Origin: Pyrinomonadaceae bacterium
GTDB lineage: Bacteria; Acidobacteriota; Blastocatellia; Pyrinomonadales; Pyrinomonadaceae
Reading direction: 5' to 3'
NCBI GenBank assembly: GCA_021228405.1
Contig: JAJQRF010000002.1
Location: 248,001 to 312,000 of the forward strand
Length of the DNA: 64,000 bases
The stretch's first letter is position 1. Each line of letters opens with the position of its first letter. The notes below the pieces were generated by a model, which was given only the letters and a program-made list of their open reading frames with translations, made no database searches and was not told the DNA's origin. The translations under genes and the position numbers were made by a program. Positions 36,737 through 54,012 of the stretch are shown here, in pieces.

Positions 36737-36794
36737 TACCGTCATTTATAAGTATTATATAGTTGTTTAATCTAAAGTAAAAAGAGGTTTCAGG

Positions 36795-38078
36795 GTGACA
36801 CGAGAAGCAGAATTAGAAAAAGCAATCGAGCGGTTGGCGACCGATCGGGCAACCACTGACGATCAACGCTTACTTCAGCGGGCGGTGCTTTCGGGTAACG
36901 TCGTTTACACGGTCGGCGAGCGCGACGTGGTCGTCGGCGAAGATGCTTCCGGTTCGATCATCATCACCGGCGACCATAACAATCTCAGCTTCAGTCTGAC
37001 CGAAGAGCTGTTCGATAAATTCAAAGACATTATTTTCCCGAAACCGCAGGGCATTGCCCCGCCGTTTCCGGACCTTGTTTTCGTCGGTCGCGACGAAGCT
37101 CTCGAGATCGTTAAAGAACGCTTCGGAATTATCGGGGAATCCGGCGAAACCTCGCAGACGTTGGTTGTCCGCGGATTTCCCGGGGTCGGAAAAACAACAT
37201 TGGTCGGAGTTTTAGCCCGCGACCCCGAACTGATTGCCCGATACCCGGACGGTGTTTTATGGACTTCGCTTGAGCAGAAACCTTCTTTGATGTCGATATT
37301 TGCCACCTGGGGAAGATCGCTCGGCAGAGATGATTTTCTGCGTATCCCGACCCCGGACGAGGCGGTTACACAATTGTCTGAAATACTGCAAAACCGGAAA
37401 ATGCTGTTGATCGTGGACGACGTTTGGCAGACGGAGCACGGAGCTTTATTTCAGAAGGCGCGCGGCTCCAGTTGCGGTTTACTGTTTACGACCCGCCTGC
37501 CGATAGTTGCCAATGAGCTTGCGTCCACGGAAACCGAAATTTACAAACTTCCCGTTCTAGAGGAAGCCGACGCGCTAAAACTGATGCGGATTCTCGCGCC
37601 GGAAGCCGTCACCCGCTACGAGAAAGAGTGCCGCGAACTGCTCAGTGAAATCGAGTATCTTCCGCTCGGAATCCACGTCGCGGCTCGCTTGTTGCGCGAA
37701 GAACTAAGAAACGACTGGGGCGACGAAAAGTTAATTAAAGATTTGATCAACGATATAAAACTAGGCGCGGCGGTCATCGAGGCAAAGGCTCCGATCGATA
37801 GAATAGAGGGCGAAAATATTCCGACCGTCACCGCATTGCTGCAAAAAAGTACCGATATGCTCGACGAGCACACACGTGAGTGTTTCGCATACCTCGGCGC
37901 ATTCGCTCCCAAACCGGCAACCTTTGACCTGAGGGCTATGCAGTTTGTGTGGGAAGTGGACGACCCGAAACCGATCGTCAAAAAACTTATCGATTACGGA
38001 CTGCTCGAACCGGTCGGCAACGGACGTTTTCAAATGCACGCCCTGCTGGTCGCGCACGCCCGTTCCCTGCTTAACTAA
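36795..38078 (+). CDS. NB-ARC STAND ATPase
   Basis: I use the GTG at 36795, with AGAGG 7 bases upstream. Residues 1-40 are helical (LQRAVLSGNVVYTVGER). Residues 43-62 form a beta-type motif (RDVVVGED...GSIIITGDHN). The NB-ARC core follows: Walker A GFPGVGKTT (127-135), Walker B KMLLIVDDVW (202-211), sensor FTTRLP (231-236) and GxP-type LPLGIHVAARLL. It then has a winged-helix end (MHALLVAHARSLLN). It lacks its own sensor arm. One in-frame TAA separates it from the next gene. Confidence 0.92.
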   Translation: MTREAELEKAIERLATDRATTDDQRLLQRAVLSGNVVYTVGERDVVVGEDASGSIIITGDHNNLSFSLTEELFDKFKDIIFPKPQGIAPPFPDLVFVGRDEALEIVKERFGIIGESGETSQTLVVRGFPGVGKTTLVGVLARDPELIARYPDGVLWTSLEQKPSLMSIFATWGRSLGRDDFLRIPTPDEAVTQLSEILQNRKMLLIVDDVWQTEHGALFQKARGSSCGLLFTTRLPIVANELASTETEIYKLPVLEEADALKLMRILAPEAVTRYEKECRELLSEIEYLPLGIHVAARLLREELRNDWGDEKLIKDLINDIKLGAAVIEAKAPIDRIEGENIPTVTALLQKSTDMLDEHTRECFAYLGAFAPKPATFDLRAMQFVWEVDDPKPIVKKLIDYGLLEPVGNGRFQMHALLVAHARSLLN

Positions 38079-38081
38079 ATA

Positions 38082-38789
38082 ATGAATGCGGAAATAAGAC
38101 ACGCCACATACTATCTTAATTTATATCTTTCGCTTGCCGATCGTTCAACACTCTATGAAGCCGATTGGCAGAAGTTTGAATTTGACCTACATAATCTGCT
38201 CTATGCCTGGGAATGGCTGAAAGATAATAAGGATAATTCTCTTGTGACGGAATTATTCACAGAATATGCAGAACTTGGCTGGATATTATTGGAACTTAGT
38301 CATAGAAACCTTACCCAAATAGTTTGGCGAGGCATTGAAAGGAACAATTCGGAAGCAAAAAACGCAGAAGAATCAGAAGTAAAAGGCAAAGAAGAAAATA
38401 CTGAAAAGGAAATCATACAAAGGTTGAACAGATTTTTATCTTCACAGGAACAGATTCTCTCGGCTTTCTCGAAAAATGAAGTGTCCGGCAGTAGTAATGT
38501 TTCGATCAGCGGTGTGGTCAACTCGCACATTCATATCAATAATTTCATTTTTGATTCATCCGATATGCCGGATTTTAATCGGGAAATAGAAACGGCATAT
38601 CACAACAAAGACTATAAATCGGCTGGCAATTTGTTATTTGAGAAAGGTAAAATCCTTCAGAAACTCGGCTATTTGTCCGATGCAATCACCATTGCTGCAG
38701 AGGCACTCGAAAATTTTAATAAAATCGAACATACCAGAGCGGCGGATGTGCAAAAGCAATTATCGAAATGGAAAGACACCGTGCAATGA
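38082..38789 (+). CDS. short STAND arm protein with beta-motif
   Basis: This 235-residue protein begins MNAEIRHATYYLNLYLSLAD, then FEFDLHNLLYAWEWLKDN, the segment that normally continues an NB-ARC protein. It has no long TPR array. Residues 139-155 (NVSISGVVNSHIHINNF) resemble the beta-motif in the NB-ARC protein, and a two-helix TPR-like unit lies at 166-215. It is in the same frame as the NB-ARC gene, 3 bases after its stop (TAA ATA ATG), so it could be translated by coupling or readthrough. Confidence 0.72.
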   Translation: MNAEIRHATYYLNLYLSLADRSTLYEADWQKFEFDLHNLLYAWEWLKDNKDNSLVTELFTEYAELGWILLELSHRNLTQIVWRGIERNNSEAKNAEESEVKGKEENTEKEIIQRLNRFLSSQEQILSAFSKNEVSGSSNVSISGVVNSHIHINNFIFDSSDMPDFNREIETAYHNKDYKSAGNLLFEKGKILQKLGYLSDAITIAAEALENFNKIEHTRAADVQKQLSKWKDTVQ

Positions 38790-38816
38790 TTTAACCGAAA
38801 TCATTGCAGTTTTTTG
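38782..38816 (+). terminator. terminator-like hairpin inside the NB-ARC operon
   Basis: TGCAATGATTT (38782-38792) pairs with AAATCATTGCA (38798-38808), followed by GTTTTTTG. The stem overlaps the stop codon of the upstream gene and lies before the next TPR gene. It is AT-rich, so it may terminate only part of the transcripts. Confidence 0.55.
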
Positions 38817-38833
38817 TGCTGACGGAAACGATT

Positions 38834-40528
38834 ATGATGACTCTTAGAGATGCGAATTTACGTTACGCCAAGTACTATGAGCTTCAGCTCCGAAACGCTG
38901 ACAAGCTTTATGTGAAAGGCGACACTTCGATACAGCAATCGCTTAAGATTTTTGAAGAGGAACTTGAAAACATACGAACCGGTCAGGCATTAGTCGAAGA
39001 AATGTCGAGGCAAGGCGACGCGGAAGCCGCACAGTTGTGTGTTTCGTATCCGATGTGCGGCGCAAATCTGCTTCATTTACGGCTGTTTCCCGGCGAACAG
39101 ATTCAATGGGGCGAAGCCGCACTTACCGCCGCCCGAAACCTTCAAGACCGACGCGCCGAAGCCATTACCTTGAGTAATCTGGGAATGGCGTATGAGATCA
39201 GCGGCGAGCTTATAACTGCGCTCGAATATCAAAATCAGGCACTGAAGCTGGCGCGTCAGATATACGACCGTTTTACCGAGGAAACCACGCTCGGAAATCT
39301 CGGTTCGGCGTATCAATCGTTAAATCAGTTCAGACGAGCAATCGAAGTTTACGCCGAGCAACTAGCCGTCGCCAAAGAAATAAAAGATGAACGCGGTGCG
39401 GCAAACGCTTTAATGAATACCGGAAACTCGTATTTCAGCCTCGGCAGTAACCGGACGGCAATCGTTTTTTATGGAAAGGCATTGAAAATTTACCGCAAAA
39501 TTCAGGATCGACGAGGCGTGGGGCGAGTGCTCGGCAACCTGGGAAATGTTTATGCCGAAATGGGCAATCCAAGCAAAGCCGTCAAGCTTCACCGACAGGA
39601 TTTGGAAATTTCCCGTGAGCTCGACGACCGTCACGGCGAAGCGCAGGCAATCGGCAGTATCGGAGCCGCCTACGCTGATCTCGGCGATCTGAAAAAGGCG
39701 ATTGAATATTATTTACTGCGGTTGGAGATTTCAAAGGAGATCAATGACCGCAAATCTCTCACACAGACGCTTTCCAATCTGGGAGCGGCTTATGCGGATT
39801 TAGGGCAGGTTCGGCGTGCCATTGATTATTACGAGCAATCGCTCGCCGTCAGCCTCGAAACTGCTGACCGCGACGGCGAAGCGACCGCGCTCATCAATCT
39901 CGGACTTGCATACTGGCGCGAAGGAAACTTCAACGAAGCGAAAACGAAGGCGATGGAATCGCTCGAGATCGCGCTCGAAATCGAAGACCCGCGCTGTCAG
40001 CAATCCGCGCTCGGTTGTCTGGGTTTGATCGCGCATTCGATGCAAGAGTTTAAGGACGCGATAAATTTTTATGAGCTGTCGCTCGAAATCGCCCGGCAAA
40101 TCGAAGATAAAAATACTGAAGCTATTTGTTTGATGAATATCGGCGACGCTCTGCGGCAACTTCAGGATTACGAACAGGCTTCCGTGTTTTCAAAGAAAGC
40201 CCTTTCGATCTTTCGGCAAACCGGAAATCTTTTCCAGGAGGCAAACGTGCTTATGAATCTCGGCAATATTTTTTCGTCACTCAACAAGCCAAAGCAAGCC
40301 ATACTTTATTACAAAAAAGCCTTGTCCGTGAGCCGATGCACCGGAAACACAATCGGCGAAGCCAACAGTTTATACAATTACAGTTTGGAGATTTATAAAA
40401 AAGGCGACGGTGAAGGCGCGCTGGCGGCTGCCGACGATGCGTTGCGGATTTTCCGCCGACTTGGTGATGTCAACAATATCAACAGAGTCGAGCACCGGCT
40501 TTTAGAGTGGCGGATGACCCCGCCGTAA
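38834..40528 (+). CDS. TPR protein with STAND-arm N-terminus (564 aa)
   Basis: I chose ATG 38834 (MMTLRDANLRYAKYY); an in-frame TTG at 38804 would add ten residues but lies in the hairpin. The start reads LRYAKYYELQLRNADKLYVKGD, then LKIFEEELENIRTGQ, the classical post-NB-ARC arm start. About eleven TPR units follow (ALGNLG..., GSIGAAYADLGDLKKAIEYY). There is no ATPase. It probably forms the ligand-sensing superhelix for the NB-ARC protein two genes upstream. Confidence 0.85.
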   Translation: MMTLRDANLRYAKYYELQLRNADKLYVKGDTSIQQSLKIFEEELENIRTGQALVEEMSRQGDAEAAQLCVSYPMCGANLLHLRLFPGEQIQWGEAALTAARNLQDRRAEAITLSNLGMAYEISGELITALEYQNQALKLARQIYDRFTEETTLGNLGSAYQSLNQFRRAIEVYAEQLAVAKEIKDERGAANALMNTGNSYFSLGSNRTAIVFYGKALKIYRKIQDRRGVGRVLGNLGNVYAEMGNPSKAVKLHRQDLEISRELDDRHGEAQAIGSIGAAYADLGDLKKAIEYYLLRLEISKEINDRKSLTQTLSNLGAAYADLGQVRRAIDYYEQSLAVSLETADRDGEATALINLGLAYWREGNFNEAKTKAMESLEIALEIEDPRCQQSALGCLGLIAHSMQEFKDAINFYELSLEIARQIEDKNTEAICLMNIGDALRQLQDYEQASVFSKKALSIFRQTGNLFQEANVLMNLGNIFSSLNKPKQAILYYKKALSVSRCTGNTIGEANSLYNYSLEIYKKGDGEGALAAADDALRIFRRLGDVNNINRVEHRLLEWRMTPP

Positions 40529-40600: not shown

Positions 40601-40960
40601 TTATTCCGCTTCCGGGCTGACGGTGCCGAAACACTGAAGATTAGTGGCGTTGATCGTAACTTCGTGAATAAGAAAGCTTAAATCCTTTCTCTCGTTTTCC
40701 TTAAAATAAACGTCCTGATTTCTCGAAAAATTTCCCTCGGATGAACTGAGAGTCGGTTTGACTTTGATAAATCCCGCTTTTCCTTCGTTCTGAATTGTCA
40801 ATTCGATGTTGATCCCGGCATCGAGCTGTTCATTAATCATCGCCACCCCGTGACTGCATTTCGATTTAACGACTCTGCCCCGCGCCGCGCTTCCGCATTG
40901 GTTGAAAGAAAGCGTGTTTATGACAAACGAGATAACTAAAAACACCTTATAAAATTTCAT
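40601..40960 (-). CDS. small exported protein at the end of the tubulin/actin-like operon
   Basis: This 119-residue protein has a signal peptide (about 1-20) followed by FNQCGS, possibly a lipobox. The mature part is beta-rich with two further Cys (KCSHGVAM, LQCFGT) that could form a disulfide. It starts 58 bases after the zinc-ribbon gene on the same strand and is the last gene of the operon. I know no family. It converges on the TPR gene. Confidence 0.55.
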   Translation of the reverse strand: MKFYKVFLVISFVINTLSFNQCGSAARGRVVKSKCSHGVAMINEQLDAGINIELTIQNEGKAGFIKVKPTLSSSEGNFSRNQDVYFKENERKDLSFLIHEVTINATNLQCFGTVSPEAE

Positions 40961-41018
40961 TTTTCACTCCCTTATAATTTTACCGATTTTTAATCTCCAA
41001 CTTTCCGCCGTTGTTCGT

Positions 41019-41759
41019 CTATGTTTTTGCAGGCGGTTCCTTCGGTCTGCGATAGCGAGCCTGCACATTCGCTGTCGGCGTTCCGCAATACGAACAGAAA
41101 ATCGCGGTCAGACCTATCGGCACACCGCATCTGACATTACTGCACCGCATCAGCTTCACCCCGCAAAACGGACAAAACAGCGAATCCAGGGGAATCTGCC
41201 GGCAACACCGATTATCCGGGCACTCGACTACTATTCCAACTTGAGCGGAAGATGATTTTGCCGTCGGGTCGAGCACCTTTTTTTCCGCGACGAACGATTC
41301 GGCTGTTTGTTGATGGCAGAAAAGACAGTGAGATCGTGTCGTCAGAAAAACGATTTTCAGAGCCGGGCAGGAGTGAAAAGTCATTTTTTTGCCCTCTGCC
41401 GTTGATGAACAACCCGCACATTGCAGCAAATCCGGGTTCGCCGCTTGGATCGCCGGGCGGTGTTTGTTGCGCGGCGGCTGATTCGACTCGAAATTTACGG
41501 TCTGGCAGTTGTGACACATATATCGGCGCATAACTTTTCGGCGGCAAACACGGCACTCATTCATAACTTTACCTTTTGCCATTTTGCTGGATTGAAAAAC
41601 TTCACAATCACAGCAATATTCCCAAATCCGGTCAAAGGGAAAGCCGAACGCCAGATAATGTCCGGTTACGCCGCAGGTGATCTGGGATTTCGATTCGACC
41701 TTTGAAATCCTGCCGTGCTCTTCGCAGAAAATCTCTATGAAATTTAATTTGTCCGTCAT
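41019..41759 (-). CDS. multi-zinc-ribbon protein
   Basis: This 246-residue cytosolic protein carries many CxxC pairs: CCDC, CRVC, CHNC, CAGC, CLFC, then a double zinc ribbon near the end (CPFCGVKLMRC and CSYCGTP). Such arrays usually mediate protein-protein contacts rather than catalysis. It starts 1 base before the lipoprotein stop in the same operon (stop 41761, start 41759), a tight coupling. It may be an adaptor between the cytoskeletal-type ATPases and other parts. The function is inferred from context only. Confidence 0.65.
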   Translation of the reverse strand: MTDKLNFIEIFCEEHGRISKVESKSQITCGVTGHYLAFGFPFDRIWEYCCDCEVFQSSKMAKGKVMNECRVCRRKVMRRYMCHNCQTVNFESNQPPRNKHRPAIQAANPDLLQCAGCSSTAEGKKMTFHSCPALKIVFLTTRSHCLFCHQQTAESFVAEKKVLDPTAKSSSAQVGIVVECPDNRCCRQIPLDSLFCPFCGVKLMRCSNVRCGVPIGLTAIFCSYCGTPTANVQARYRRPKEPPAKT

Positions 41760-41760
41760 T

Positions 41761-43044
41761 TCATTGAATGGAAATTTTTCCTTTCCTCAGCAGTTTCCAC
41801 CCGTCGCCCTCTTTGTCGACCATTGCCGGTTTTTCTACTAAAAGTTCCCCAGCACCGGCATTTTCGCAATCAAAATATGCCTGAATATTGAAATAATCCT
41901 CACTTTTTCGGAAACGTTCTTTATTAGGGATGATGTAGCGGAAAATTTGAGCATTGCTTTTATTTTCAATTAACAAAAAAGTTTCGTCCCGAAAGCTCGG
42001 AATGAGCAAATCGCTGAACTGGTCTTTTTCGAGCGCGCGTGAGCGTCCCTGATACTGGTCTTTCAACTCTTTAACCAGCGTCGGCTTAAAGATCGTCGGC
42101 ACGGTGATTTCGTTTTTCACAGACGGCACGTTTTGGGACGCTGCCGACGATTCGGAAATCGGTCGCCGATAATTGTCGATTTTTTTAGAAATGGAATTTT
42201 CTGCATCAATTATCTGTTGCGGCAGACAGCCGACCGAATCTATGAGCTCGCCGAGAAGTTTTTCGATCTTAGGCAGATCAACCTCATCTTCCGGTTTTGA
42301 TAAATCGGAATCAAGGTTATTTTCCGCCTTTTGTTTATCCTGCGGCGGAGGATAAACCGCCGGATTTCGATTCCAACTGCCGGGCGACTCATCGGCTTTC
42401 GGATTTGAGGGAGCTTGGTTGTAAGTCATTCCAACTCTTTCATTCTGCTTGCCGACGGTGGTTGATGATTTTTGCAATTGGTGCATTATCAAAACAAACC
42501 CGGCGACAAGGATAAGTCCCAGAAATCCCGATTGCACCAGAATTACGATCGGGATTCTCGATGAATCGTTTTCGGCGACCTTTTGGCTGATCGTGTCTAA
42601 CTGTCGATCGATCGGATCGATCTTAGCCTTGATTATTCTTTCCAGTTCCTTTCCTAATTCTTCCGAATCAAAATTTTGTTCCGGTTGCGATTGAGCGACC
42701 TCGTTAAAAGCAATGTCTTTTATTTCGAGCAGTTTATCTTTAACTTCCTGGATTCTAATGTCTTTCAGGGCGAGATTAAATTTTTTGTTGGCTTCTTCAG
42801 GTTCGCTTTTATATTCTTTCTTATAAGTTTCAATTTTCCCTCCTATAAGCTTGATGCTTTCTTCATTACCCAATAAACTGTGCAGACTTTCATCCAAATT
42901 GCTCTTCGCGGGAGAGTTATATGTGGCGGGCGAGGGCGATGGAGAACTATTTGCAACCTTGTTGGAATTACCAAGTTTTCCCGAACTGCAAGCCGTAAAC
43001 AACAATGACGCGGCGAACAACGCTGACAAAAATAAATTTCTCAT
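41761..43044 (-). CDS. lipoprotein with membrane helix and cytoplasmic-side C-terminus
   Basis: A lipobox LLFTAC lies at the start, followed by a Ser/Pro/Asn-rich linker and a charged helical region (about 50-160). A transmembrane helix (IPIVILVQSGFLGLILVAGFVLIM, about 165-188) follows, then a helical segment and a beta-rich C-terminal domain. A lipid anchor outside plus one helix implies that residues after ~190 lie in the cytoplasm. It starts 11 bases after the actin-like gene. It has no known family; the role is probably a membrane anchor for the ATPase. Confidence 0.6.
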   Translation of the reverse strand: MRNLFLSALFAASLLFTACSSGKLGNSNKVANSSPSPSPATYNSPAKSNLDESLHSLLGNEESIKLIGGKIETYKKEYKSEPEEANKKFNLALKDIRIQEVKDKLLEIKDIAFNEVAQSQPEQNFDSEELGKELERIIKAKIDPIDRQLDTISQKVAENDSSRIPIVILVQSGFLGLILVAGFVLIMHQLQKSSTTVGKQNERVGMTYNQAPSNPKADESPGSWNRNPAVYPPPQDKQKAENNLDSDLSKPEDEVDLPKIEKLLGELIDSVGCLPQQIIDAENSISKKIDNYRRPISESSAASQNVPSVKNEITVPTIFKPTLVKELKDQYQGRSRALEKDQFSDLLIPSFRDETFLLIENKSNAQIFRYIIPNKERFRKSEDYFNIQAYFDCENAGAGELLVEKPAMVDKEGDGWKLLRKGKISIQ

Positions 43045-43055
43045 ATTTTTCCTCG

Positions 43056-46000
43056 CTAGTTACCGTTTCCGTTTTTCCTGTAGTAACCGTAATGCTCGGC
43101 AAGCAAATCCAGAATGTTCTGCTCCGATTCGTTACCATATAAAACGTGGGAAAGGAAATAATTGGACGGGACCGCCGAAACATTTTCACCGCTCTCTGTT
43201 TTGACCAGACGATTGGTTCCGGGTTCGATGCCCAACTGGTTAATGGCTTCAAAGAGTTTCTGGTTGATGTATTGCCATATTTGCGCCGGAGCACGGTCTT
43301 CGCCGAGCGACTGGCTGTTTCCCAATCCGGTAAAGATTTTCAGGATCGGGTCGTATGGCTCACCCAAATCCTGCGGGTGTTTAAATTGCGGGTTGTTGAT
43401 GGCACTAATTTCTTTTCCAAAAATCTGCATAATATTGTCTAAACTCCAACGCTCACTCCAGAAAACTTTCTGCGGCTCAAACCCGTTGATCGAAAATCCC
43501 TCGACATTTAATCCTGCAAAAGGCGGCAGTTGGTCGGGTTTTTCCGATGACTGTCCTCTCAAAGCTCCAAGTGCTACCGAGGTTTTGGCTTTGCTCAAAT
43601 CTTCGACATTAAGCAGATTGATCGAATTTAACTTTAAATTCTTCAGGAGTTTTTTCTCATTTGGTTTGACGAGCGGCAACAAAACATCTTTGAGAAACTC
43701 CAGAATTCTCTCGGCTTTTCGCTTCAGAGCCTGATTTGATCTTTCCCACTGTGCAAACATCAGCAAGCCCCAGCCGTTGCCGCCGAGAATTATATCGATT
43801 CCCGTATTCAGCGTGATTTTCTTCGAGATAACCGTTGCACAGGCTTGAAGCAACGCGTAAGCCAGCAGATGCTGGAAAAAAAGCTCTGCCCGATACGCGG
43901 AATATAACGGGTCGTTTGCCGTTCCGGACTGAATGACAGCAAAGACGCTTGCCTCTTTTTTTGTAAAATCCTCTTTCGTAAAATCGTTTATCTTGATCGA
44001 ATATGCGTTTCCGAAAGGCAAGTTATTAAGTTTCGGTAAATCCGTTTCCAAAAGCCTCTGAATATTTATTTCCGAACTTCGCGGAGTGCTCATTAAAATG
44101 TTCAGTTTCTTTTCGAGCCGTTCAAAGCCGCTTAATTTTCGGAGCAAAGCCTTTTCGAGGATTTTAAATAAATTGTTGCCGGCGATTTTCAGACTGTCCA
44201 AAAGATGAAAAACATTTCTATGACGAATCGCAATATCGGCAGTGCCGCCGCCAATATCGACAAACACCTGCAACAGTCCTTCATAACCGTTGCCGCCCGG
44301 GATCGTATTGGCGATCGCGGTGCTTTCGTCCACCAGTGCAAGCGTGATGTTCTGAGCCATATCGCCGCCGAAGCAATAATGGCGAATGCGCCGAATTTCC
44401 GATTCTATGCTTGCTTTGTAACTCTCGAACTGGCGGTTGTTAAACGCCAGCGGATAGGTAAAGGCATATTCCCCGATGCGCACATTATTGTTGAAAAACG
44501 CCTCGGCGTGCGCGTAAAACAAGAGCAAATCCAAAAACAGCGACCGCAAAATCTCGGAACCCCATTTCATCTCGGAGTTGTCGCCCCATTTCAAATCAGG
44601 ACGCAATCGCCACGGAGCCTTCGGATTCTGCTCATTGCTCGAAATAAAGACACCTTTCAACAATTCATCGTTGAGTCCTTTATGCAGGCTTGGAATATCG
44701 ACCCTGAAAAGATGTTCCAGCCGGATGTCGCGGGGATCGAGTTGTTCGAGCGTGCTGTCTTCGGTTCGCCATATCAGACTGGTCGTAAAGAATCCTTTTT
44801 CTCCGCCCCAGTTGAACGGAACCGAACCGGGCGTTTCGTAATGATCTTTCGGATCAGGCGGAATGCCCCAGAGCGTAAGGGCTCTTAAGGAAAAAGTAAG
44901 CACGCGCGATTCGCCCGTCGACATTTTTACTGCCAGACAGGTGTTGCTCGTCCCGAGATCGACGGAAAGCGTCGCTTGCGCGCTCGGAGGAATATAATGA
45001 TTTAAAAACGGCTTGAAGAACAAGACACCGCCTTCCTTGCCGTTTTCGCCCTGATAACAAATAGCGCGCGGCTCATTCGGCAACTTGCCGCCCGTTTCGG
45101 AATCCGGTGCCAGAATGCTGATATAGTTTTCATCGGTCATCCGAAAATTTTTTCCGAAGGAACCGTTCTGGTCGATCAACTGCCACGTTCCGCGATTTCC
45201 TTGAACGGTCGTCCCGTAAAGCGTATAGAGATGCCACTCGGGTGAAACTTTCGGCGGATACATTTCGACGGTCGTATTAACCATTTTGTCCTGAAATTCG
45301 GGTTCGCATTCCCAGACCACGGTTTTACCCTTTAAGTTGAAAATCCATTGTAGTTTCTTTGCTTTTTCATTCCATTGAACTTTCACCGTATCGGACGGGT
45401 CTTTCAGGATTTCGGGGAAATGTTTGAGAAATTCCTTTGAGATCGGGGACAGTGAAATAGTCGTTTCCTCATCGTTGATCTGTTTATTCTCAAACTTTTC
45501 GCGGTGTATATTCAGACACTGGGTTGTAAAACCCGAGTCAGCCGCTCCGAATTTACCAAACAACGGCGCAGTAAGAAACAGTTCGTTAAGTTTAACGATT
45601 TGGTCGTGCTCTTCGATTCGGCATTTGCGGATTTCCGTTCCGACCCGCACGGAAATGATGTTTTCGGCGGTCTGGACGTAACCGGCAGCAGTCGGGTAGC
45701 CGCGTATTACGGGTTCGTGCATCCATTCTGAAGCGACCGGCATTTCATTAATCAGGTAATAAATAGTAGCTTGCTTACCGGCTTCGCTTCCCGACAACTC
45801 GACGACCTGGCGCAGAGGATAAGCTTTCAGCAGTAAATGATTCTGATTCGACGGTGGCGGCGCGCCTTCAAGTTCCCATTCGCTCGGGCGCGGCTTAAGG
45901 ATGGGCAGATTTTGCCGCTCTATATCGGTAATCGGACTGAAATGTTGGGCGCAAAACTCGTCTATTCTTGCCTGCAGTTTTTCGTTGTGACCGAGCAGTT

Positions 46001-46577
46001 TGCGAATTGCCCGCAGGTGATAATGCGAACGCTGTTTCAGCCGATTGCTGTTTGCGTTCTCAAATAATTTCTCACACTTTTTCCAGGAAAGCCGCTGACT
46101 CTCAAGATACGGTTGAATAACTTTGCTTTCCTGCCAGGTTTCGCGTCCACGGCTTGGAAAAAAGATCGTCTGCGGATAATAAGCACCGATCACCTTGCCG
46201 TCAATCGTTTCGAGCAATGAAACTTCCTTGAGTTCCTCGTTAAGCGGATACGTCCGGCGCAGGATCGTCCACAGATTGTAATCTCCCTGCTCGTCCTGAA
46301 CCTTCGTTTCATCGGCGGTTCTTAAAAAGACTATTCCGTTGAAATGCAGTAAAAAAAGACACATCCATTCTTCGAGTGCAGTTTGATAATCCGTATTATT
46401 GGTTAATTCGCGTTCAAAACTGTAGGCTTGCGTCCAAACGCTCGGGTAAGCCTCGAACAGACTCTTGTCGAACGGCGGCTGGCTGAAACTCGTTTTATCG
46501 ATTTTATAAAAACTCTCTTCCTGAGGAAGATTGACTTTTCCGCTGAAAAATTCCTGATTTAAGAAAAAATGTTTCAT
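43056..46577 (-). CDS. large actin/Hsp70-like ATPase with novel N-terminal half
   Basis: Of its 1173 residues, the C-terminal ~640 contain an ASKHA ATPase: phosphate-1 loop LSVDLGTSNTCLAVKM (near 534), phosphate-2 VFVDIGGGTADIAIRH (near 772), and an adenosine-type IILGGNGWGLLM (near 927). It resembles SrfB-type Hsp70-like proteins. The first ~530 residues show no domain I know. It follows the tubulin-like stop with no gap, so the two are translated together. ATP-dependent assembly or chaperone action is inferred from the fold. Confidence 0.8.
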   Translation of the reverse strand: MKHFFLNQEFFSGKVNLPQEESFYKIDKTSFSQPPFDKSLFEAYPSVWTQAYSFERELTNNTDYQTALEEWMCLFLLHFNGIVFLRTADETKVQDEQGDYNLWTILRRTYPLNEELKEVSLLETIDGKVIGAYYPQTIFFPSRGRETWQESKVIQPYLESQRLSWKKCEKLFENANSNRLKQRSHYHLRAIRKLLGHNEKLQARIDEFCAQHFSPITDIERQNLPILKPRPSEWELEGAPPPSNQNHLLLKAYPLRQVVELSGSEAGKQATIYYLINEMPVASEWMHEPVIRGYPTAAGYVQTAENIISVRVGTEIRKCRIEEHDQIVKLNELFLTAPLFGKFGAADSGFTTQCLNIHREKFENKQINDEETTISLSPISKEFLKHFPEILKDPSDTVKVQWNEKAKKLQWIFNLKGKTVVWECEPEFQDKMVNTTVEMYPPKVSPEWHLYTLYGTTVQGNRGTWQLIDQNGSFGKNFRMTDENYISILAPDSETGGKLPNEPRAICYQGENGKEGGVLFFKPFLNHYIPPSAQATLSVDLGTSNTCLAVKMSTGESRVLTFSLRALTLWGIPPDPKDHYETPGSVPFNWGGEKGFFTTSLIWRTEDSTLEQLDPRDIRLEHLFRVDIPSLHKGLNDELLKGVFISSNEQNPKAPWRLRPDLKWGDNSEMKWGSEILRSLFLDLLLFYAHAEAFFNNNVRIGEYAFTYPLAFNNRQFESYKASIESEIRRIRHYCFGGDMAQNITLALVDESTAIANTIPGGNGYEGLLQVFVDIGGGTADIAIRHRNVFHLLDSLKIAGNNLFKILEKALLRKLSGFERLEKKLNILMSTPRSSEINIQRLLETDLPKLNNLPFGNAYSIKINDFTKEDFTKKEASVFAVIQSGTANDPLYSAYRAELFFQHLLAYALLQACATVISKKITLNTGIDIILGGNGWGLLMFAQWERSNQALKRKAERILEFLKDVLLPLVKPNEKKLLKNLKLNSINLLNVEDLSKAKTSVALGALRGQSSEKPDQLPPFAGLNVEGFSINGFEPQKVFWSERWSLDNIMQIFGKEISAINNPQFKHPQDLGEPYDPILKIFTGLGNSQSLGEDRAPAQIWQYINQKLFEAINQLGIEPGTNRLVKTESGENVSAVPSNYFLSHVLYGNESEQNILDLLAEHYGYYRKNGNGN

Positions 46578-48227
46578 TTAATTTTTACCTCTTACTACTT
46601 CGCAGTTCTCGTAAAGTTTTGACCAGATGAATCGCAAATATTCGCCGCGAGTAAAATTTCCGTCAGGAACCCAATTTTCAAAATCCTCGAAGATTTTTTC
46701 GTTGATCTCCCAGCCGCCAAGCCTCACCGGATAAATTTCGCGAAGTCCCCGCCATATTGTTTTCGTAAATCTCTTGTCGAAAAAATTGTCGAGTTCGGCA
46801 TTGTCGCGACTCCAACCGGTCGGATATTCGACATTGTGCTGTTGCGTGAGGTCTTTTAGAAAATCGCCGATCGTGTGAATTATTTGCGTGTAATTTCTTC
46901 CTTCCGAATCTAAATTCAGTCCTCTTTCGTGAAGTGTTTCAAAGAATTTAAATCTCCCGCGTGCGGCGTATGCCGCCGACCAGGGAAGCACCTGTTCAAT
47001 CAGATAACAAAGGAGTCCGCTTACGAAAAACGCTTTTTCCGGCACGATCAATTCATTGCCGACCCTGTAACAGGGCAGATTGCCGAGCCGCAATGCACTT
47101 GAATCCAATTCGACAGGTCCGCCCGGCACCTTATACTGGTCTTTCAGATTTCGTTCGGACGTTTGCGAAAAGAATTCGAGCGCGGCGAGGGCAGCGGCAA
47201 TTTCCGCCGAATTCAGCGGATTTCTTTGGGAAAGCCCGCCATTGCTCCAGCGGTTTGAGGGCAATATATTCGGCGACGGTTTACTCACCAGATAAAGCAG
47301 ATCGAAATAAGCATCCGAATTGCTGCGATAATATTCGAGCCCCTGCCGCGCCCGGCGGATAACTTCTTCGGGTTTTGCATAATATCCTTGCAGGATGAGC
47401 TTAAACAGTTTTCGTTTGGCTTCGTCATCAAGAGCCATAAATTCGTCTTTTTCGCCAAACTTCTTCAAATATTCGTCGATTTTTTTACTGAGGTTAGACG
47501 GCGTGATGAGATCGCCTTCATCCGCCTTGAAGGGCGGTGCCGGAGGAAGAAAATAAGGTCCCAGCAAACAGCCGCCGATGTTCCACGAAGTGATGTTCTG
47601 TTTGCGCCGACGGTTCTTTAAAAATTTAGCCATAATCGGAACGCCGCTCGCGCCGGTGCCGCCGTGCAGACTTCCGCACAGGAAAAAATTGGTTTCCTCG
47701 TTGTCGTAAGCCATCAAACCGGCGGTGCGTCCCTGCTCGGTGGTTGTCAAATCAAGCGTTTCAGCGAACAACGCCATTACCGCCGAGCCGATAAACGGTT
47801 TTTGATAAAACCCTTCACTGATGTCGACATCCAAATCCTTTTCTTCGTAAAACGGATGCAGAAAAGGCAACGCCGTTTCCTGCATCGCAACGAGCGTTCG
47901 CAGATTTTTGACCGGCGAAGAGTTGCCGGAATTGTTCAGATTCAGCGGATCGAGTTCGGTGTTAGTAATATCGGTCTTGATTTCCGACCAGTAAGTTCCC
48001 GTTAGAGTCTGAAGTTGCTCGTAATCATTCAGAGTTCTTTTTAATTGATCGGCAGCCCCGGCACTTTTATCGGGGTCGATTCTCCAGATATGAATATCGC
48101 TTCCATAACTGGTCAGTTGCCGTGAGTTTTGGTCGAAGCGAATCGGAAAGCCGAGTCCAAGCAGTTTAACCATCGCTTCCGCGACCTTCGTTCCGCTGCC
48201 GCCGATCGCAATAAAGACGTTTTTCAT
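46578..48227 (-). CDS. tubulin/FtsZ-like GTPase (Tubulin_2 type)
   Basis: The first residues MKNVFIAIGGSGTKVAEAMVKLL form a Rossmann start like FtsZ. FLCGSLHGGTGASGVP (about 181-196) is a version of the tubulin GGGTGSG signature, adapted to GSLHGGTGASG. Length (549) and layout match the Tubulin_2 group. Family knowledge: related FtsZ-like genes occur with vWA proteins and have been proposed to remodel membranes. It is third in the operon, after the vWA and small membrane genes. Confidence 0.82.
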   Translation of the reverse strand: MKNVFIAIGGSGTKVAEAMVKLLGLGFPIRFDQNSRQLTSYGSDIHIWRIDPDKSAGAADQLKRTLNDYEQLQTLTGTYWSEIKTDITNTELDPLNLNNSGNSSPVKNLRTLVAMQETALPFLHPFYEEKDLDVDISEGFYQKPFIGSAVMALFAETLDLTTTEQGRTAGLMAYDNEETNFFLCGSLHGGTGASGVPIMAKFLKNRRRKQNITSWNIGGCLLGPYFLPPAPPFKADEGDLITPSNLSKKIDEYLKKFGEKDEFMALDDEAKRKLFKLILQGYYAKPEEVIRRARQGLEYYRSNSDAYFDLLYLVSKPSPNILPSNRWSNGGLSQRNPLNSAEIAAALAALEFFSQTSERNLKDQYKVPGGPVELDSSALRLGNLPCYRVGNELIVPEKAFFVSGLLCYLIEQVLPWSAAYAARGRFKFFETLHERGLNLDSEGRNYTQIIHTIGDFLKDLTQQHNVEYPTGWSRDNAELDNFFDKRFTKTIWRGLREIYPVRLGGWEINEKIFEDFENWVPDGNFTRGEYLRFIWSKLYENCEVVRGKN

Positions 48228-48257
48228 ATATTTTCTCCCTTCGTTTCAATGAAAGCC

Positions 48258-48626
48258 TTAAAATATTTCGGTTCTCCAATCTTTGTGAACCAGATTTACA
48301 AACAAAAAAATAATGACGTATGTCATAACCGCCGCCAGTGCTCCGTAGCCGTAATTGGCGTAGTTGATATAATCCGGATCGGAAAATTGCATCGCCAGCA
48401 AAAGCAGGGGAATCGGGCTTGTGCCGAGCGTCATATGCAGTAAATTTCGATTCCGGCTCCACACCTCATTATTTTTTCTTTTCTGGAGAATGTATTTGAG
48501 TATCAGCAAAGAAATGCTTATGCTAAACCCGACCGCCAGCGAAATTAAAAACCAGTTGAATGCCGTTTTCGATTTGTTCCCGAACAGCGAAATAAAATCG
48601 GTGAATTGTAATGCGATTAAAATCAT
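48258..48626 (-). CDS. small multi-helix membrane protein
   Basis: I use the ATG at 48626 (MILIALQFTDFISLFG), with AGGAG 5 bases upstream; earlier in-frame starts overlap the vWA gene. This gives 122 residues with about three hydrophobic helices: FNWFLISLAVGFSISISLLI, MTLGTSPIPLLLLAM and GALAAVMTYVIIFLFVNLV. It lies between the vWA gene (23 bases away) and the tubulin-like gene (30 bases). It is a probable inner-membrane subunit of that system; no family is recognised. Confidence 0.7.
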   Translation of the reverse strand: MILIALQFTDFISLFGNKSKTAFNWFLISLAVGFSISISLLILKYILQKRKNNEVWSRNRNLLHMTLGTSPIPLLLLAMQFSDPDYINYANYGYGALAAVMTYVIIFLFVNLVHKDWRTEIF

Positions 48627-48649
48627 TTCTTCTCCTTTCATATTCGGCT

Positions 48650-50122
48650 TTAACGTTCGCCGACTCTTAAATAAATCTTCGCGACCACTTGTTTTTGAAT
48701 CGCCGCGTTCTTCCATAAATTTCCCAAAGACTCGATCAAATTCAGCGTTTTACTTGCTTCTTTCGAGTTGGTGTCGGTTGGGGTTGACCAATCTGCGACC
48801 CAGTTCGGAGAAAATTTATCGGTGTTGACTCGACCTACCAGCACGAAAACGCGCGAGCCGCGATTGCCTTCGCCCTTTGTCCAGCCGGTTTCGAGATTTA
48901 TGGTGGTTTTCCCGTCATCGGAGTAATCGATCTTGCCCAGTCTTGCCATCGGATAACGGCTTCCCTCCGGTTCTTCCGCACATTGATGAAGCTCCCATTT
49001 AATGGCTTCCGAAAGTTCTTTTTTGTTTCCCACCAGTTCTGTTTCCGTTTTCCACGGGAGATCGGTCGTAATGGAAAACGGGACTGCGCCGGAGTCTGCC
49101 GTATCAGTCGAAACTCCGACCGTAAATGCCGGATTTTCGCCCGTTTCGTCCGGGGTTACGGCAAGAACGGAGGTTTGCTCTTCCGGCTTTCCGAAGGCGG
49201 TGATATTGCCGTTCAAATAGCGTCCGTAGTTGTCAGTTACCGGAAATTCCCTGAGAAAATCCGCGTCTTTTGCATCCGCCGGCTTAAACTTCAAAAGACG
49301 TTCCTTGAGCGAAGCGGTAAATTGATTGAGTTCATTCTGATCCGCTGAAAAAATGTATAGATAAAAGGGGCGAAACCCCGCAACGATTTTTTCCGACTGG
49401 TAATCAGTCGAAATATCGGGCAGAACTTCCGAGTAAACCAATCCGTCAAACTCGCTTCGCAATCCGAGAATCGTTAGTCCCCAATTCTCTTCCTTTCTGC
49501 CGATCATTTTGAATATCTCTTCCTTCAGACAGCGCGGATCGGAACTTTGCGTGCAATTACCGCTCGACTGCACGCCGTCGGTCACCAGAATATGAAATCT
49601 TGGCGGACCGGCTTCATCCGGCTTCATTTTTTTCGGAAAGGATTTAACGGCGAGTGCCAGATCGGTATCGTCGCCATCATAAAACTCGTCGCGCCGGAGC
49701 GCGCCCGTGACGATTTCCATAGCACCGGCGGGTTCGCTGAGATGTTCGGCAACGCGCCGCAGGCTGACCGCATAATCGGGTGAGATCAGGCTGGCAGCAT
49801 TTTTCAATTCGATCAGCGTTCTCGAATAAACGGTTTGTCCGTTCGGCGAAACGGCAAAATTTCGCTCCCTCCGAGGTGAGATATAGCCACGCATACTCTT
49901 GCTCGTATCAAGATAAACCACTATGTTGTTGCTGACGTTTTGCGGCTTTTTCTGACTTCCCGCCGGAAATTTTGTGTCGAGCAATGATTGACAGATTTCG
50001 GGGCATTTTTCACAGTTATTCTTGTAACCGGGACAAGCCAACAGAAAAAATACGATTGCCGGGGAAATAATCGCCCGGAGATAAATTTCCGCAGGTTTTC
50101 GTTTATGTTTCGGATTCATCAT
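48650..50122 (-). CDS. vWA-domain lipoprotein
   Basis: A lipobox FFLLAC (Cys30) marks export and lipidation. The vWA domain (about 65-250) has an intact MIDAS: DTSKS (Asp72, Ser74, Ser76), DDTDLALAV and ILVTDGVQSSG. The rest is beta-rich with no known domain. It is the first gene of the minus operon, and two ATGs lie at 50122/50119. vWA lipoproteins commonly serve as adhesion or assembly platforms; here it would link the tubulin- and actin-like proteins to the envelope, an inference. Confidence 0.82.
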   Translation of the reverse strand: MMNPKHKRKPAEIYLRAIISPAIVFFLLACPGYKNNCEKCPEICQSLLDTKFPAGSQKKPQNVSNNIVVYLDTSKSMRGYISPRRERNFAVSPNGQTVYSRTLIELKNAASLISPDYAVSLRRVAEHLSEPAGAMEIVTGALRRDEFYDGDDTDLALAVKSFPKKMKPDEAGPPRFHILVTDGVQSSGNCTQSSDPRCLKEEIFKMIGRKEENWGLTILGLRSEFDGLVYSEVLPDISTDYQSEKIVAGFRPFYLYIFSADQNELNQFTASLKERLLKFKPADAKDADFLREFPVTDNYGRYLNGNITAFGKPEEQTSVLAVTPDETGENPAFTVGVSTDTADSGAVPFSITTDLPWKTETELVGNKKELSEAIKWELHQCAEEPEGSRYPMARLGKIDYSDDGKTTINLETGWTKGEGNRGSRVFVLVGRVNTDKFSPNWVADWSTPTDTNSKEASKTLNLIESLGNLWKNAAIQKQVVAKIYLRVGER

Positions 50123-50505: not shown

Positions 50506-51261
50506 ATGGAAAAAATAACCAAAAAAGCCCTTATTCTGTTTGCCAATCCGAAGGGAACTCAAAAAATAAAACTCCGAAAGGAGAGAAAGATCATTGAAGA
50601 AACTCTCAAAAAATTGTCCGATGATAAAAACGGGTTGGAGATTAAATATATCGACGGCTCGACCATTGACGATTTATGCGATGAACTGCTTACGGGCAAT
50701 TATCATATTCTTCAAATTTCGAGTCATGGAACGGAAAATGGTTTGATTCTCGAACGTGAGAACGGCAAACCGCACGTTATCAAGCCGGAAGCCTTAGCCA
50801 AACTGTTGAAAAAATTCAGATCGCTGGAATGTGTGATCTTCAATGCTTGTTATTCGATTGCGCAGGGTAAGCACACCGCCGCCTATGTTCCGTATACGAT
50901 TGCCATGCAGGAAGCCATCGCGGACGAAGCCGCCCGCAGATTTTCCAGAGGTTTTTACAGTGCCATCGCAACCGGCAACTCATACGAGTTTGCTTTCACT
51001 CACGGATGCGATGCGGCTGGTTTTGCCGAAGATAATCAATTTCAAGCCGAACTGCTTACACCGCGCCCAATCAGCCGTGAGGCAAATTATGAGAAAACCG
51101 CGCCGGACAACAACGATTTGCCGGAATCCGTCCCCTCGCCGACCGGCAATACGATCAACGTAAACGGAAACAGAAACGTCGTTATCGGCGGAAATATGAG
51201 AAACAGCCGGGTCTACACGGGAAACTCAAACTTCGCCTCCGAAGAAGAAATAGACGAATAG
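50506..51261 (+). CDS. small CHAT-family (caspase-like) protease with C-terminal beta-motif
   Basis: This 251-residue CHAT/caspase fold has the catalytic His in LQISSHGTENGL (His74) and Cys in VIFNACYSIAQ (Cys115). The region IADEAARRFSRGFYSAIATGNSYEFAF (about 138-164) is typical of CHAT C-termini. After a linker, residues 223-242 (RNVVIGGN...VYTGNSN) form a beta-motif closely like residues 43-62 of the NB-ARC protein. The catalytic pair is intact. It is probably a protease activated through that motif. Confidence 0.85.
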   Translation: MEKITKKALILFANPKGTQKIKLRKERKIIEETLKKLSDDKNGLEIKYIDGSTIDDLCDELLTGNYHILQISSHGTENGLILERENGKPHVIKPEALAKLLKKFRSLECVIFNACYSIAQGKHTAAYVPYTIAMQEAIADEAARRFSRGFYSAIATGNSYEFAFTHGCDAAGFAEDNQFQAELLTPRPISREANYEKTAPDNNDLPESVPSPTGNTINVNGNRNVVIGGNMRNSRVYTGNSNFASEEEIDE

Positions 51262-51318
51262 AAAAACGAAGTGCCGAGCAAAAAGCGCGACCGCCGGATC
51301 ACGATACTGGCGCGGACA

Positions 51319-53328
51319 TTATTTTTTACATAAATAAAAAGTGCGATTGATCGTGAACCAATCGTTTTCCTCATCCAGTTCATAATTTCCTTCCCGCGTG
51401 CGGTTTTCCTTAAAATACAAACGCATCAGTTTATCGAGCGGTGACTTTGACCGGATGCGGGTTCGCAAACCTGATTGCTCGATCCAGCTAAAGTTCGTCT
51501 GCTCGGTCGTGATCATCAATTTGAAAACTTCAACGCCTCCGTTGCGGTTAATATCCGGCAAAGCAGTAATGCGCGCCTCGTCCGGGATGAAAAGATTTAT
51601 TCTTTCATTCGGAAGAATGCCGACACTGAGCTTACCCAGATTCGGGTTTTCGATAAAACCGCCGCCGGAACGAGTCTTTTCCAATTTTTCGCTCGCGGCA
51701 CGGCGCGGATAAAGCAAACTGATGCGCTTGGTCAGCCCCAAATCGAGCACACTAATGTAGATCGGGACGGGAGAAAGGTTTGTCACCTGAAAGGCGATCT
51801 GCTCGCCCTCAGAAAACAACGGCAGATTGTTATAACGGGGTTCCGCTTTTTTCCACTTTCCCTTATTCTTTTGCAACAATTCAAATTTGACCAAATCCTT
51901 CAGGCGGCTTACGGAATTTTGCAATTCCGTGACCATCGCAAATTTGACAAGAGTTTCCAATGTTCGGCAAACCTTTTTGTGATAGTCTTTGTCGGCAGAT
52001 GCACCGCTCCATAAGATTGCGTGATCGTGCGTTTGCAAAATTACGATTTTATTAATTCCGGGCACAGCATTTCCGGCTTCGGGATTTGCGATGCTTGAAA
52101 CAATAAAATCGGAATCTGTCGCCTGATCGGTTAATTTCAACCAGGAAGATTTTTTTACAGCTTTCGCAATTGAATGTCTTATTTCGTCAAAATCCGTCGA
52201 AGGCATATCCAGAAAAACTTTAGCCGCCTTATTTTTATAATAATGGACTTCCTCGACCGCCTTATCACCCGCCTTGATCTCCGAGTTTTTAGACTCTTTG
52301 ATTATTTTGGCGCGCGAAGTCACCACGTCTATCTGACTGATTTTGACCGTACCGATCTTTTTCGGCTTCAATTGACGGATAGCCTCCGGCTCAAAAACTC
52401 CCCATTGTGAACCGATTGTAATTCCGTGAGAAGCACCCGCCAACAGGATCACTTCATCACCGGTGCGTTCCTTAATGGAAATGTATTGAAGCGTTTCCGT
52501 TTGAATACCGGTGAAAAGTTGTCGCTCATTTCGCCCTTCGATCTGCGGGTGCTGCGATGTCGTTCTAAGCCCCATTTTTATGCACACTTGTTCAAAAACA
52601 TCCTGATAAGTGGCATTCTCCGGAGCATTTCTCAATTCACCTGCCAAAAAATATGTAAAAGCCCCGAAGGGAGTTTTTTTATCTCCTTCGATAACCGTAT
52701 ATTCCCTGGCAAATTCATCTTTTTTACAACCCGCCAGCAAAACGTAGCTTTCGGAAAGCTCCAGCCAATTTACGGAAGAACGCGGGAAGAGATTTTCAGC
52801 ACTCATTTTTGATGCGGCTTTTTTGACCTCTGCCGATGAGAGAAGCGAATCGGTTTCGACCCCCCTGATCTTTTCTCCGCGCACGATCGATCCCGCATAG
52901 CAACTGTCACAAAAGAAACAGATGTTTTTTGTTATTTTTGCCAGAAGCGCGATCCAATCCCGTAAATCCGAATCATAAATATCACGATGAGTCGCAATAT
53001 CCGTAGGACTGTCGTAAGGAACTATCGTTTCTTCCAAACCGTCGGGCTTTGTCGTTTCTCTGGCGATCCGGCGAGTTCCGTGACCGCTGAAATGGAGCAC
53101 GACCGGCGCATCGGGTTCGCAAGTTTCCAATATCCTCCGCATTTCTTCGACAATCCGGTCGCGGGTCGCCTCTTTATCTTTCAAAAGAGTTATCTCATCT
53201 TCACTAAAACCGAACTTTTCTCTTAAGACCGAAGCAATAATTTCCACATCGTTGATGCAGCCGTCCAATGGATATTCGCGATAATATTTGTATTCGTTAA
53301 TGCCAATCAGCAAAGCTCTTTTTTTCAT
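51319..53328 (-). CDS. caspase-family protease (peptidase C14) with DUF4384-type domain
   Basis: This 669-residue protein has an N-terminal caspase fold (1-~265): ALLIGINEY start, His83 in LHFSGHGT and Cys143 in FFCDSCYAG, an intact catalytic pair. A middle beta/helix region follows. A DUF4384-type segment (about 505-620) contains GEQIAFQVTNLSPVPIYISVLD and IDLFIP-like strands. There is no signal peptide. It converges on the small CHAT gene and is divergent from a 53-codon peptide gene. Proteolytic signalling is likely; no substrate can be read from the sequence. Confidence 0.88.
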   Translation of the reverse strand: MKKRALLIGINEYKYYREYPLDGCINDVEIIASVLREKFGFSEDEITLLKDKEATRDRIVEEMRRILETCEPDAPVVLHFSGHGTRRIARETTKPDGLEETIVPYDSPTDIATHRDIYDSDLRDWIALLAKITKNICFFCDSCYAGSIVRGEKIRGVETDSLLSSAEVKKAASKMSAENLFPRSSVNWLELSESYVLLAGCKKDEFAREYTVIEGDKKTPFGAFTYFLAGELRNAPENATYQDVFEQVCIKMGLRTTSQHPQIEGRNERQLFTGIQTETLQYISIKERTGDEVILLAGASHGITIGSQWGVFEPEAIRQLKPKKIGTVKISQIDVVTSRAKIIKESKNSEIKAGDKAVEEVHYYKNKAAKVFLDMPSTDFDEIRHSIAKAVKKSSWLKLTDQATDSDFIVSSIANPEAGNAVPGINKIVILQTHDHAILWSGASADKDYHKKVCRTLETLVKFAMVTELQNSVSRLKDLVKFELLQKNKGKWKKAEPRYNNLPLFSEGEQIAFQVTNLSPVPIYISVLDLGLTKRISLLYPRRAASEKLEKTRSGGGFIENPNLGKLSVGILPNERINLFIPDEARITALPDINRNGGVEVFKLMITTEQTNFSWIEQSGLRTRIRSKSPLDKLMRLYFKENRTREGNYELDEENDWFTINRTFYLCKK

Positions 53329-53519
53329 AAAATTTGGTTTCGATTCCCGATCGAAAGCGCGAAGGCTTCTTGTTTAATTATTATCCGAGTTAAAGTAAAA
53401 TATTACATATTTTTTTCGTTTTGATATTTTGTGTTGATTCGATTTTTTTGAAAATTACACTCATTTGACAGCTTGTTAATCATAAATTTTGCTTACAAAA
53501 TAAAAAGCTTAAAAATTTA

Positions 53520-53548
53520 GTAACATTTCAGTAAAAATCGGATACTAT
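53520..53548 (+). promoter_or_regulatory. weak candidate promoter for the 53-residue peptide
   Basis: GTAACA (53520-53525) and TACTAT (53543-53548) are separated by 17 bases, four of six matches each to the housekeeping consensus. The ATG lies 58 bases downstream. The evidence is modest. Confidence 0.3.
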
Positions 53549-53605
53549 ATGGAAACAGATTTCCAAATTCGATTCAAAACTTAAAAGTATAAATGGAGAA
53601 AAACA

Positions 53606-53767
53606 ATGTCAGATACTAAAGAAAAAGAAGAAAATAATGAGGAAAAACTACGTACCCAAACCGTTGAGACACGCGGACTGCCGCTTCAAAACAGTCAGGG
53701 AAATTCAAACGACGAGCAGGAAGACTCGACAACGGACGACGCTCCGAAAGAACCGAGAAATTCCTGA
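53606..53767 (+). CDS. acidic disordered small protein, 53 aa
   Basis: An ATG at 53606 with GGAG 7 bases upstream opens a 53-codon frame ending TGA at 53767. The product is rich in Glu, Asp, Asn, Ser and Gln, with a short central TRGLPLQNS, and has no hydrophobic core, Cys or signal. It looks intrinsically disordered. It lies alone between a caspase gene and the large CHAT gene. No family is known; a protease substrate or regulator is possible but unproven. Confidence 0.5.
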   Translation: MSDTKEKEENNEEKLRTQTVETRGLPLQNSQGNSNDEQEDSTTDDAPKEPRNS

Positions 53768-54012
53768 GATTTAACGATTTAAGACAATAAGGAATACCCG
53801 ATCCGGGCATAAATACCGACACACAACAGTTCGGAAAAGCGAAGAACAATCCGTGCGAAGCGAATTGTTTTTCGCTTCGCCTTGAAAATATGCTTTTCCT
53901 CGAAAGATCGCCGCAAACTCAACGCTCCTCTTAACGCCTTCAAAATTTGACTAAAACAGTTTTATATATGTAAAATTTAGCGACTTGAATTTAATGCTGA
54001 GGCGGCTTTAAT

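Follow-up and report, generated by a model that had tools for sequence, protein, structure and literature searches.

A tubulin-like protein and a large actin/Hsp70-type ATPase form an obligate gene pair in a previously undescribed, patchily distributed bacterial module

Background

According to the abstract of PMC10058229, cytomotive filaments are known from two families, the actin-type and the tubulin-type proteins. The divisome joins one of each, since FtsZ and FtsA are tubulin-fold and actin-fold proteins encoded by adjacent genes and acting close to the membrane. Here we describe a seven-gene operon in a 64,000-nucleotide stretch of a Pyrinomonadaceae bacterium (contig JAJQRF010000002.1, positions 248,001 to 312,000; the whole stretch is called the window below), in which a tubulin-like protein is likewise encoded beside an ATPase of the actin/Hsp70 (ASKHA) type, together with a vWA lipoprotein and further membrane proteins. 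Unlike FtsZ-FtsA, this module is accessory and patchy in its distribution, has an ATPase of 1173 residues, and includes a vWA lipoprotein and client proteins that share a putative docking domain; no division-gene context was seen.

A second point of comparison is the association between FtsZl1 and vWA proteins published in 2010 by Makarova and Koonin (PMC2875224), to which the original prediction, made from the window's sequence without database searches, had correctly pointed. The FtsZl1 operons likewise place a divergent tubulin-like protein beside a vWA protein with an intact metal-ion-dependent adhesion site (MIDAS) and membrane proteins, in cyanobacteria among others. The partners reported for them are instead a P-loop GTPase, kinases and OmpA-like proteins, and in most FtsZl1 proteins the FtsZ domain is followed by a coiled coil. 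The main text of that paper names no actin, Hsp70, MreB or FtsA partner and no shared docking domain.

The third are the systems of Kaur et al. (PMC7159879), which also bring together tubulins, vWA proteins, zinc ribbons, SH3 and FGS domains and membrane parts, with assembly near the membrane inferred. These are defined by a DO-GTPase and GAP1 (GAP1-N2), neither of which is shown by the seven window genes, and they keep tubulin and HSP70 in different neighbourhoods, unlike the module described here. Tree work in PMC9871819 set aside the branch of tubulins to which the module belongs, and no description of a tubulin, actin/Hsp70 and vWA operon was found in the texts of open-licence PMC papers. 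The tubulin-like/ATPase module is previously undescribed and could plausibly merit a category to itself.

Results and discussion

The tubulin-like and ATPase genes are an obligate pair

Profiles of the two proteins were run against 396 Acidobacteriota genomes, a match being called strong at an E value below 1e-28 (the weaker ATPase matches were mainly ordinary proteins of MreB size). The tubulin-like protein was found in 14 genomes and the ATPase in the identical 14, as neighbours every time; the chance of such a co-occurrence is about 10^-25 if genomes are independent, which is not fully so. Adjacency, on which the original prediction had staked itself, proved nearly universal: at 38 of the 39 loci with enough flank, the gene that follows the tubulin-like one in the same orientation is the ATPase gene, within about 410 bases in 36 of those 38. 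The distance matrices of the two proteins correlate at r 0.946 (permutations reached at most 0.235), and their trees have 25 splits in common.

In a few loci the two proteins are encoded, wholly or in part, in one open reading frame (ORF). At L029 they are fused into a single ORF of 1689 amino acids (aa), found in a fragmented assembly, so that a sequence error is possible in principle. L032 (1478 aa) is likely a second and more diverged fusion, its tubulin part being matched by hhalign at E 1e-9. In L087 and L030, a stretch matching positions 26-203 of the ATPase profile lies behind the tubulin domain, on the tubulin ORF. More distant loci with tubulin, ATPase and vWA genes also exist (L031, hhalign E 9e-7). 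The tubulin-like protein and the ATPase constitute an obligate gene pair.

Layout of the operon

The seven ORFs occupy 50122 down to 40601 of the minus strand, with intergenic gaps of 0 to about 60 bases, in a genome of 5.7 Mb whose closest named relatives are Acidobacteriota (Pyrinomonadaceae, gp4, Blastocatellia). The one-strand, short-gap arrangement that had been proposed is borne out at every ORF, with one start corrected (see below). The features are:

48650..50122 (-), vWA lipoprotein, 490 aa, with a lipobox signal (Cys37) and the MIDAS motifs DTSKSM and TD
48258..48626 (-), small multi-helix membrane protein; the ORF itself opens at 48716
46578..48227 (-), tubulin/FtsZ-like predicted GTPase, 549 aa
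47643..47675 (-), T4-type phosphate loop GSLHGGTGASG, tubulin-like residues 185-195, whose GGTGA is invariant in 38/38 relatives
43056..46577 (-), large actin/Hsp70-type (ASKHA) ATPase, 1173 aa
43545..44981 (-), ASKHA fold, ATPase residues 533-1011, with DLGTSNT, K663, E751, DIGGGTAD and GGNG
44982..46577 (-), N-terminal ~530 residues of the ATPase, matching no known family
41761..43044 (-), lipoprotein with lipobox, its own membrane helix (residues 166-184) and a C-terminal putative docking domain
41773..41991 (-), ~75-aa putative docking domain, lipoprotein residues 352-424
41019..41759 (-), multi-zinc-ribbon protein (Zn_Ribbon_1, 6e-5)
40601..40960 (-), small exported protein, 119 aa, with a relative upstream of the vWA gene in L022 (2.6e-24)

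For the small membrane protein the probable start is 48626, which gives about 122 aa, not 152, because the ATG there, 24 bases past the vWA stop, is preceded by AAGGAGAAGA, a good ribosome-binding site. Promoter and terminator scans gave counts at chance level only. The guanine-cytosine content of the operon is similar to that of its surroundings, and a foreign base composition was rejected.

The tubulin-like protein

Single sequences gave weak scores, and alignments were therefore built from 38 relatives of the tubulin-like protein and 35 of the ATPase. Pfam scores for the window's tubulin-like protein were 0.0065 (Tubulin) and 0.02 (Tubulin_2, PF13809), the latter at 14.6 bits against a curated cut-off of 27. 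Among the 38 relatives, 27 match Tubulin_2 at E 0.01 (best 2.4e-12), and the alignment profile found no match among PDB sequences. On these profile scores the window protein is a relative of the FtsZl1/Tubulin_2 family and is not filed as a member.

An AlphaFold model of the protein (predicted local distance difference test, pLDDT, 83; predicted template modelling score, pTM, 0.90) aligns with Bacillus subtilis FtsZ at Z 15.7, with a root-mean-square deviation of 4.7 over 217 residues (VIA-align), and all 50 top structural rows are FtsZ, CetZ or tubulins. Foldseek alone mixed tubulin and dehydrogenase folds, which VIA-align separated. Residues G9, G10, G12, D51, D53 and G189-A193, covering the T1 (GGxG) and T4 (GGTGA) loops, are invariant in 38/38 relatives. 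GTP binding is well supported by these motifs and by the model.

The ASKHA ATPase

For the partner, the model (pLDDT 79, pTM 0.74) shows an actin/Hsp70 fold in residues 533-1011 that compares with MreB at Z 11.9, FtsA at 11.4 and DnaK at 11.3, along with phosphate-1, phosphate-2 and adenosine motifs; D540, G542, K663, D774, G777 and G933 are invariant in 35/35 relatives. The formation of both nucleotide sites in predicted structures had been named beforehand as decisive, and FtsZ-like and MreB/FtsA/DnaK-like folds are indeed formed around invariant motifs. Sequence models lean towards MreB and FtsA: MreB_Mbl is matched by 24/35, FtsA by 11/35 and HSP70 by 0/35. Among solved structures, the profile reaches MreB (7e-11) and mitochondrial Hsp70 (2e-6). 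The window protein itself falls below the family cut-offs (FtsA 19 bits vs 31.8, MreB_Mbl 14.1 vs 27).

The active site may nevertheless be Hsp70-like, because an invariant lysine precedes the glutamate and because E751, D774 and T779, which like K663 are invariant or nearly so, are spaced 23 and 5 residues apart. The Hsp70 catalytic residues E175, D199 and T204 are spaced 24 and 5, and K663 resembles Hsp70 K71, a lysine not known as an MreB feature.

The original prediction had linked the ATPase to SrfB, a protein of the srfABC operon that is likewise large (about 1000 aa) and that it called Hsp70-like. This link found no support: SrfB (PF07520) matches none of the 35 relatives, its profile finds nothing in the window's genome even at E 1, and in eight module genomes it gives three weak matches, in two genomes (best 0.24). 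At another locus (L084:12368-15247), the module's membrane protein is followed at a short distance by a further ASKHA-like ORF, which is diverged, 959 aa long and has CxxC pairs.

The vWA lipoprotein and the small membrane protein

Pfam VWA scores the window lipoprotein at 0.24, below cut-off, and its assignment as a vWA protein rests on the MIDAS residues. Cys37, D72, S76, T181 and D182 (DTSKSM, TD) are invariant in nine close relatives, in keeping with the intact MIDAS read from the window; across 28 diverse relatives the first MIDAS aspartate is kept in 23 and the later one in all 28. The alignment profile had no match among PDB sequences. Of the 41 loci with room for a vWA gene upstream of the tubulin gene, 31 have one.

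The small multi-helix membrane protein noted in the window also has equivalents elsewhere. A protein of 110-230 aa with at least two membrane helices is encoded directly upstream of the tubulin gene in 32/41 loci, the sequence being only weakly conserved. At L042 (4827-9956), and also at L028, an inserted ORF of 1710 aa with an N-terminal membrane helix separates the tubulin gene from that of the membrane protein. The remaining two predicted components, a lipoprotein with a second membrane helix and a zinc-ribbon protein, are confirmed by the lipobox and helix 166-184 of the former and the Zn_Ribbon_1 match of the latter. Taken together, the proposal of a conserved system that pairs tubulin-type and actin/Hsp70-type switches with a vWA lipoprotein and membrane proteins is supported.

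A ~75-aa domain shared by candidate client proteins

The last ~75 residues of the window lipoprotein (352-424) make up a domain that is new here and was missed in the original prediction. Over five profile rounds it recurred in 66 ORFs of related loci, with the consensus NYWIIKE..YYLVPKANRKINQYEYETVKALFECDQPEYGKFKLVKPAKVSRDGQGWQLEEKGVLE, and it has no match in Pfam, NCBIfam or PDB sequences. A gene with the domain directly follows the ATPase gene in 26/37 loci, and the genes after it often carry the domain too. Single or tandem copies are linked to lipobox-helix arms, zinc ribbons, or FGE-sulfatase, SH3_3 or TM2 domains; relatives of the zinc-ribbon protein (L021, L034/L023) extend into this domain, a membrane helix and sometimes an FGE-sulfatase domain. 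Because the domain recurs on different proteins of one operon, we infer a docking role. By the positive-inside rule it would be cytoplasmic in 52 of 58 proteins and on the opposite side in 4, the window lipoprotein being one of the two ties.

The domain is nearly confined to module-bearing genomes. It is present in a single copy in the window's genome, in the operon, and in 7/297 Acidobacteriota genomes, all with the module. Among 194 cyanobacteria, 15 of the 17 carriers have the tubulin-like protein, as do 3 of 177 non-carriers (Fisher p 1e-17). In one genus (genomes G046, G050 and G054) part of the module lies in trans: the gene for a protein with zinc ribbon, putative docking domain and membrane helix lies at a distance of about 60 kb in G046 (L083:5882-7552) and of 20-30 kb in the other two. 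A Xenococcus genome (G433, locus L055) holds 15 copies of the domain on at least six contigs, none beside the ATPase gene of its locus.

Distribution and genomic surroundings

Named genomes hold 43 loci, from Acidobacteriota, Cyanobacteriota, Pseudomonadota, Calditrichota and Clostridia; with Bacteroidota, represented by a Prevotella locus, the module is seen in six phyla. It is sparse within them (14/396 Acidobacteriota, 18/194 cyanobacteria). The Clostridia that carry it (L052, L066, L070-L072, L075) have no outer membrane, which is therefore not required; of the trans-envelope assembly that had been proposed, a membrane system stands, narrowed to the cytoplasmic membrane.

An Acidobacteria copy (L042) groups with cyanobacteria in the tree, which suggests transfer of the module as a unit. 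On a 163,688-base plasmid of Picosynechococcus PCC 73109 (L076) the module includes three consecutive genes with the putative docking domain, one of them with TM2, and all its core genes are annotated as hypothetical. Picosynechococcus PCC 8807, PCC 7003 and NIES-970 also carry the ATPase, which public plasmid records likewise list as hypothetical. A fragment in a Tatlockia metagenome-assembled genome (L074), possibly mis-binned, has a gene layout like that of the cyanobacterial loci L046 and L050. Phage origin was rejected, relatives of the ATPase being absent from 50,697 phage records.

The operon is flanked in the window (35061-40528 and 50506-57594) by genes for an NB-ARC STAND ATPase (36795-38078), two TPR proteins, CHAT proteins (50506-51261, 54013-57594) and a caspase (51319-53328), likely a local death/defence island. 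The protease/STAND island that had been noted is thus present here but does not generally accompany the module. Among 85 upstream neighbours tallied by Pfam across loci, CHAT and caspase were each counted twice, mostly from the window's own genes, and a general island was rejected; upstream flanks at other loci hold mostly housekeeping genes.

A membrane-bound scaffold and its rivals

We give roughly even credence to the reading that the operon's products form a scaffold at the membrane which is switched by GTP and ATP and recruits clients through the ~75-aa domain. In outline, the tubulin-like protein and the ATPase would bind each other through the N-terminal region of the ATPase and assemble, as a polymer or an ordered cluster, beneath the cytoplasmic membrane, where the small membrane protein would anchor them. 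The putative docking domain would plug client membrane proteins into this assembly, the external vWA lipoprotein would use its metal site to bind a ligand or the cell wall, and turnover of GTP and ATP would gather or release the clients. The device would work like FtsZ-FtsA, in which an actin-like partner ties a tubulin polymer to the membrane, but as a dispensable accessory and not as a division machine; the patchy distribution and plasmid carriage favour an accessory role. The fusion at L029, the likely one at L032 and the shared ORFs of L087 and L030 count in favour of a tubulin-ATPase scaffold. So do the matching occurrence and adjacency of the two genes, their correlated distances and common tree splits, the predicted folds with invariant nucleotide motifs, and the mostly cytoplasmic orientation of the ~75-aa domain and its close tracking of the module.

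Several observations pull the other way. The genome counts are phylogenetically non-independent, 3 of the 14 genomes coming from one genus, and tree congruence is also expected from joint inheritance without contact. In the T7 loop region no strongly conserved acid follows helix 340-353 among the 38 relatives, for which reason polymer-activated GTP hydrolysis is not assured; D383 is kept in 29/38 and is Asn in the window protein, in a region modelled partly at low confidence. Some vWA members are without a full MIDAS. Finally, the putative docking domain was undetected after the ATPase in the Prevotella, Gemmiger, Roseomonas and Calditrichaceae loci and in two Sphingomonas loci.

The main rival is a conflict system, directed against phages or competitors, of the type described by Kaur et al. 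in 2020, in which a sensor would trigger a nucleotide-driven assembly and the ~75-aa domain, as an effector-associated domain, would couple variable effectors to it. Patchiness, carriage on cyanobacterial plasmids, the NB-ARC, CHAT and caspase genes near the operon in the window, and clients with zinc ribbons, FGE-sulfatase, SH3_3 and TM2 domains all suit such a system, as does the likeness to the GTPase-centred systems of PMC7159879, whose parts near the membrane include tubulins, HSP70, vWA, zinc ribbons, SH3 and FGS. In that paper, however, the tubulin and HSP70 themes do not overlap, and the seven window genes show no P-loop motif or Pfam GTPase match, hence no defining DO-GTPase. No toxin domain was recognised among the clients scanned, the flanks of other loci are mostly of the housekeeping kind described above, and the phage records contain no phage-borne copy. 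PADLOC returned nothing beyond a chance-level 0.012 for the seven genes, and a known defence system was rejected, the core having no meaningful match. We regard this rival as unlikely, if the strongest of those considered.

A less probable account makes the module a chaperone-type remodeller, in which the Hsp70-like ATPase would be no filament partner and would load, unfold or disassemble either the tubulin-like protein or membrane-bound clients, in the way DnaK handles its own clients. The ATPase fits Hsp70 nearly as well as MreB in structure (DnaK Z 11.3 vs 11.9), and K663 with the E751/D774/T779 spacing comes near to the Hsp70 catalytic set; yet no Hsp70 substrate-binding domain was recognised in the protein, and its relatives match MreB_Mbl and FtsA and never HSP70. 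Least probable is an accessory cell-shape or division factor whose vWA and SH3 domains would read the cell wall. The FtsZ, MreB and FtsA folds and the clients with an SH3_3 domain and external regions agree with it, whereas presence in so few Acidobacteriota and cyanobacteria, and on plasmids, speaks against a core growth function.

To return to the membrane-bound scaffold, its boldest form would be a third kind of cytoskeletal machine in bacteria, in which tubulin and actin types co-assemble into a hybrid scaffold on the cytoplasmic side of the membrane, with a client-recruiting domain and an external metal-dependent sensor, spread as one unit over at least six phyla. We offer this form tentatively, as the less probable version of the two.

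Conclusions

An accessory module that regularly uses both folds, with natural fusions between them, would provide a compact new system for studying how the tubulin and actin/Hsp70 folds cooperate. The ~75-aa domain offers a convenient means of tracing the full set of clients, and the plasmid copies in cultured Picosynechococcus strains make the module testable. Such a module would, moreover, assign a function to a branch of the tubulin superfamily that is so far an orphan.

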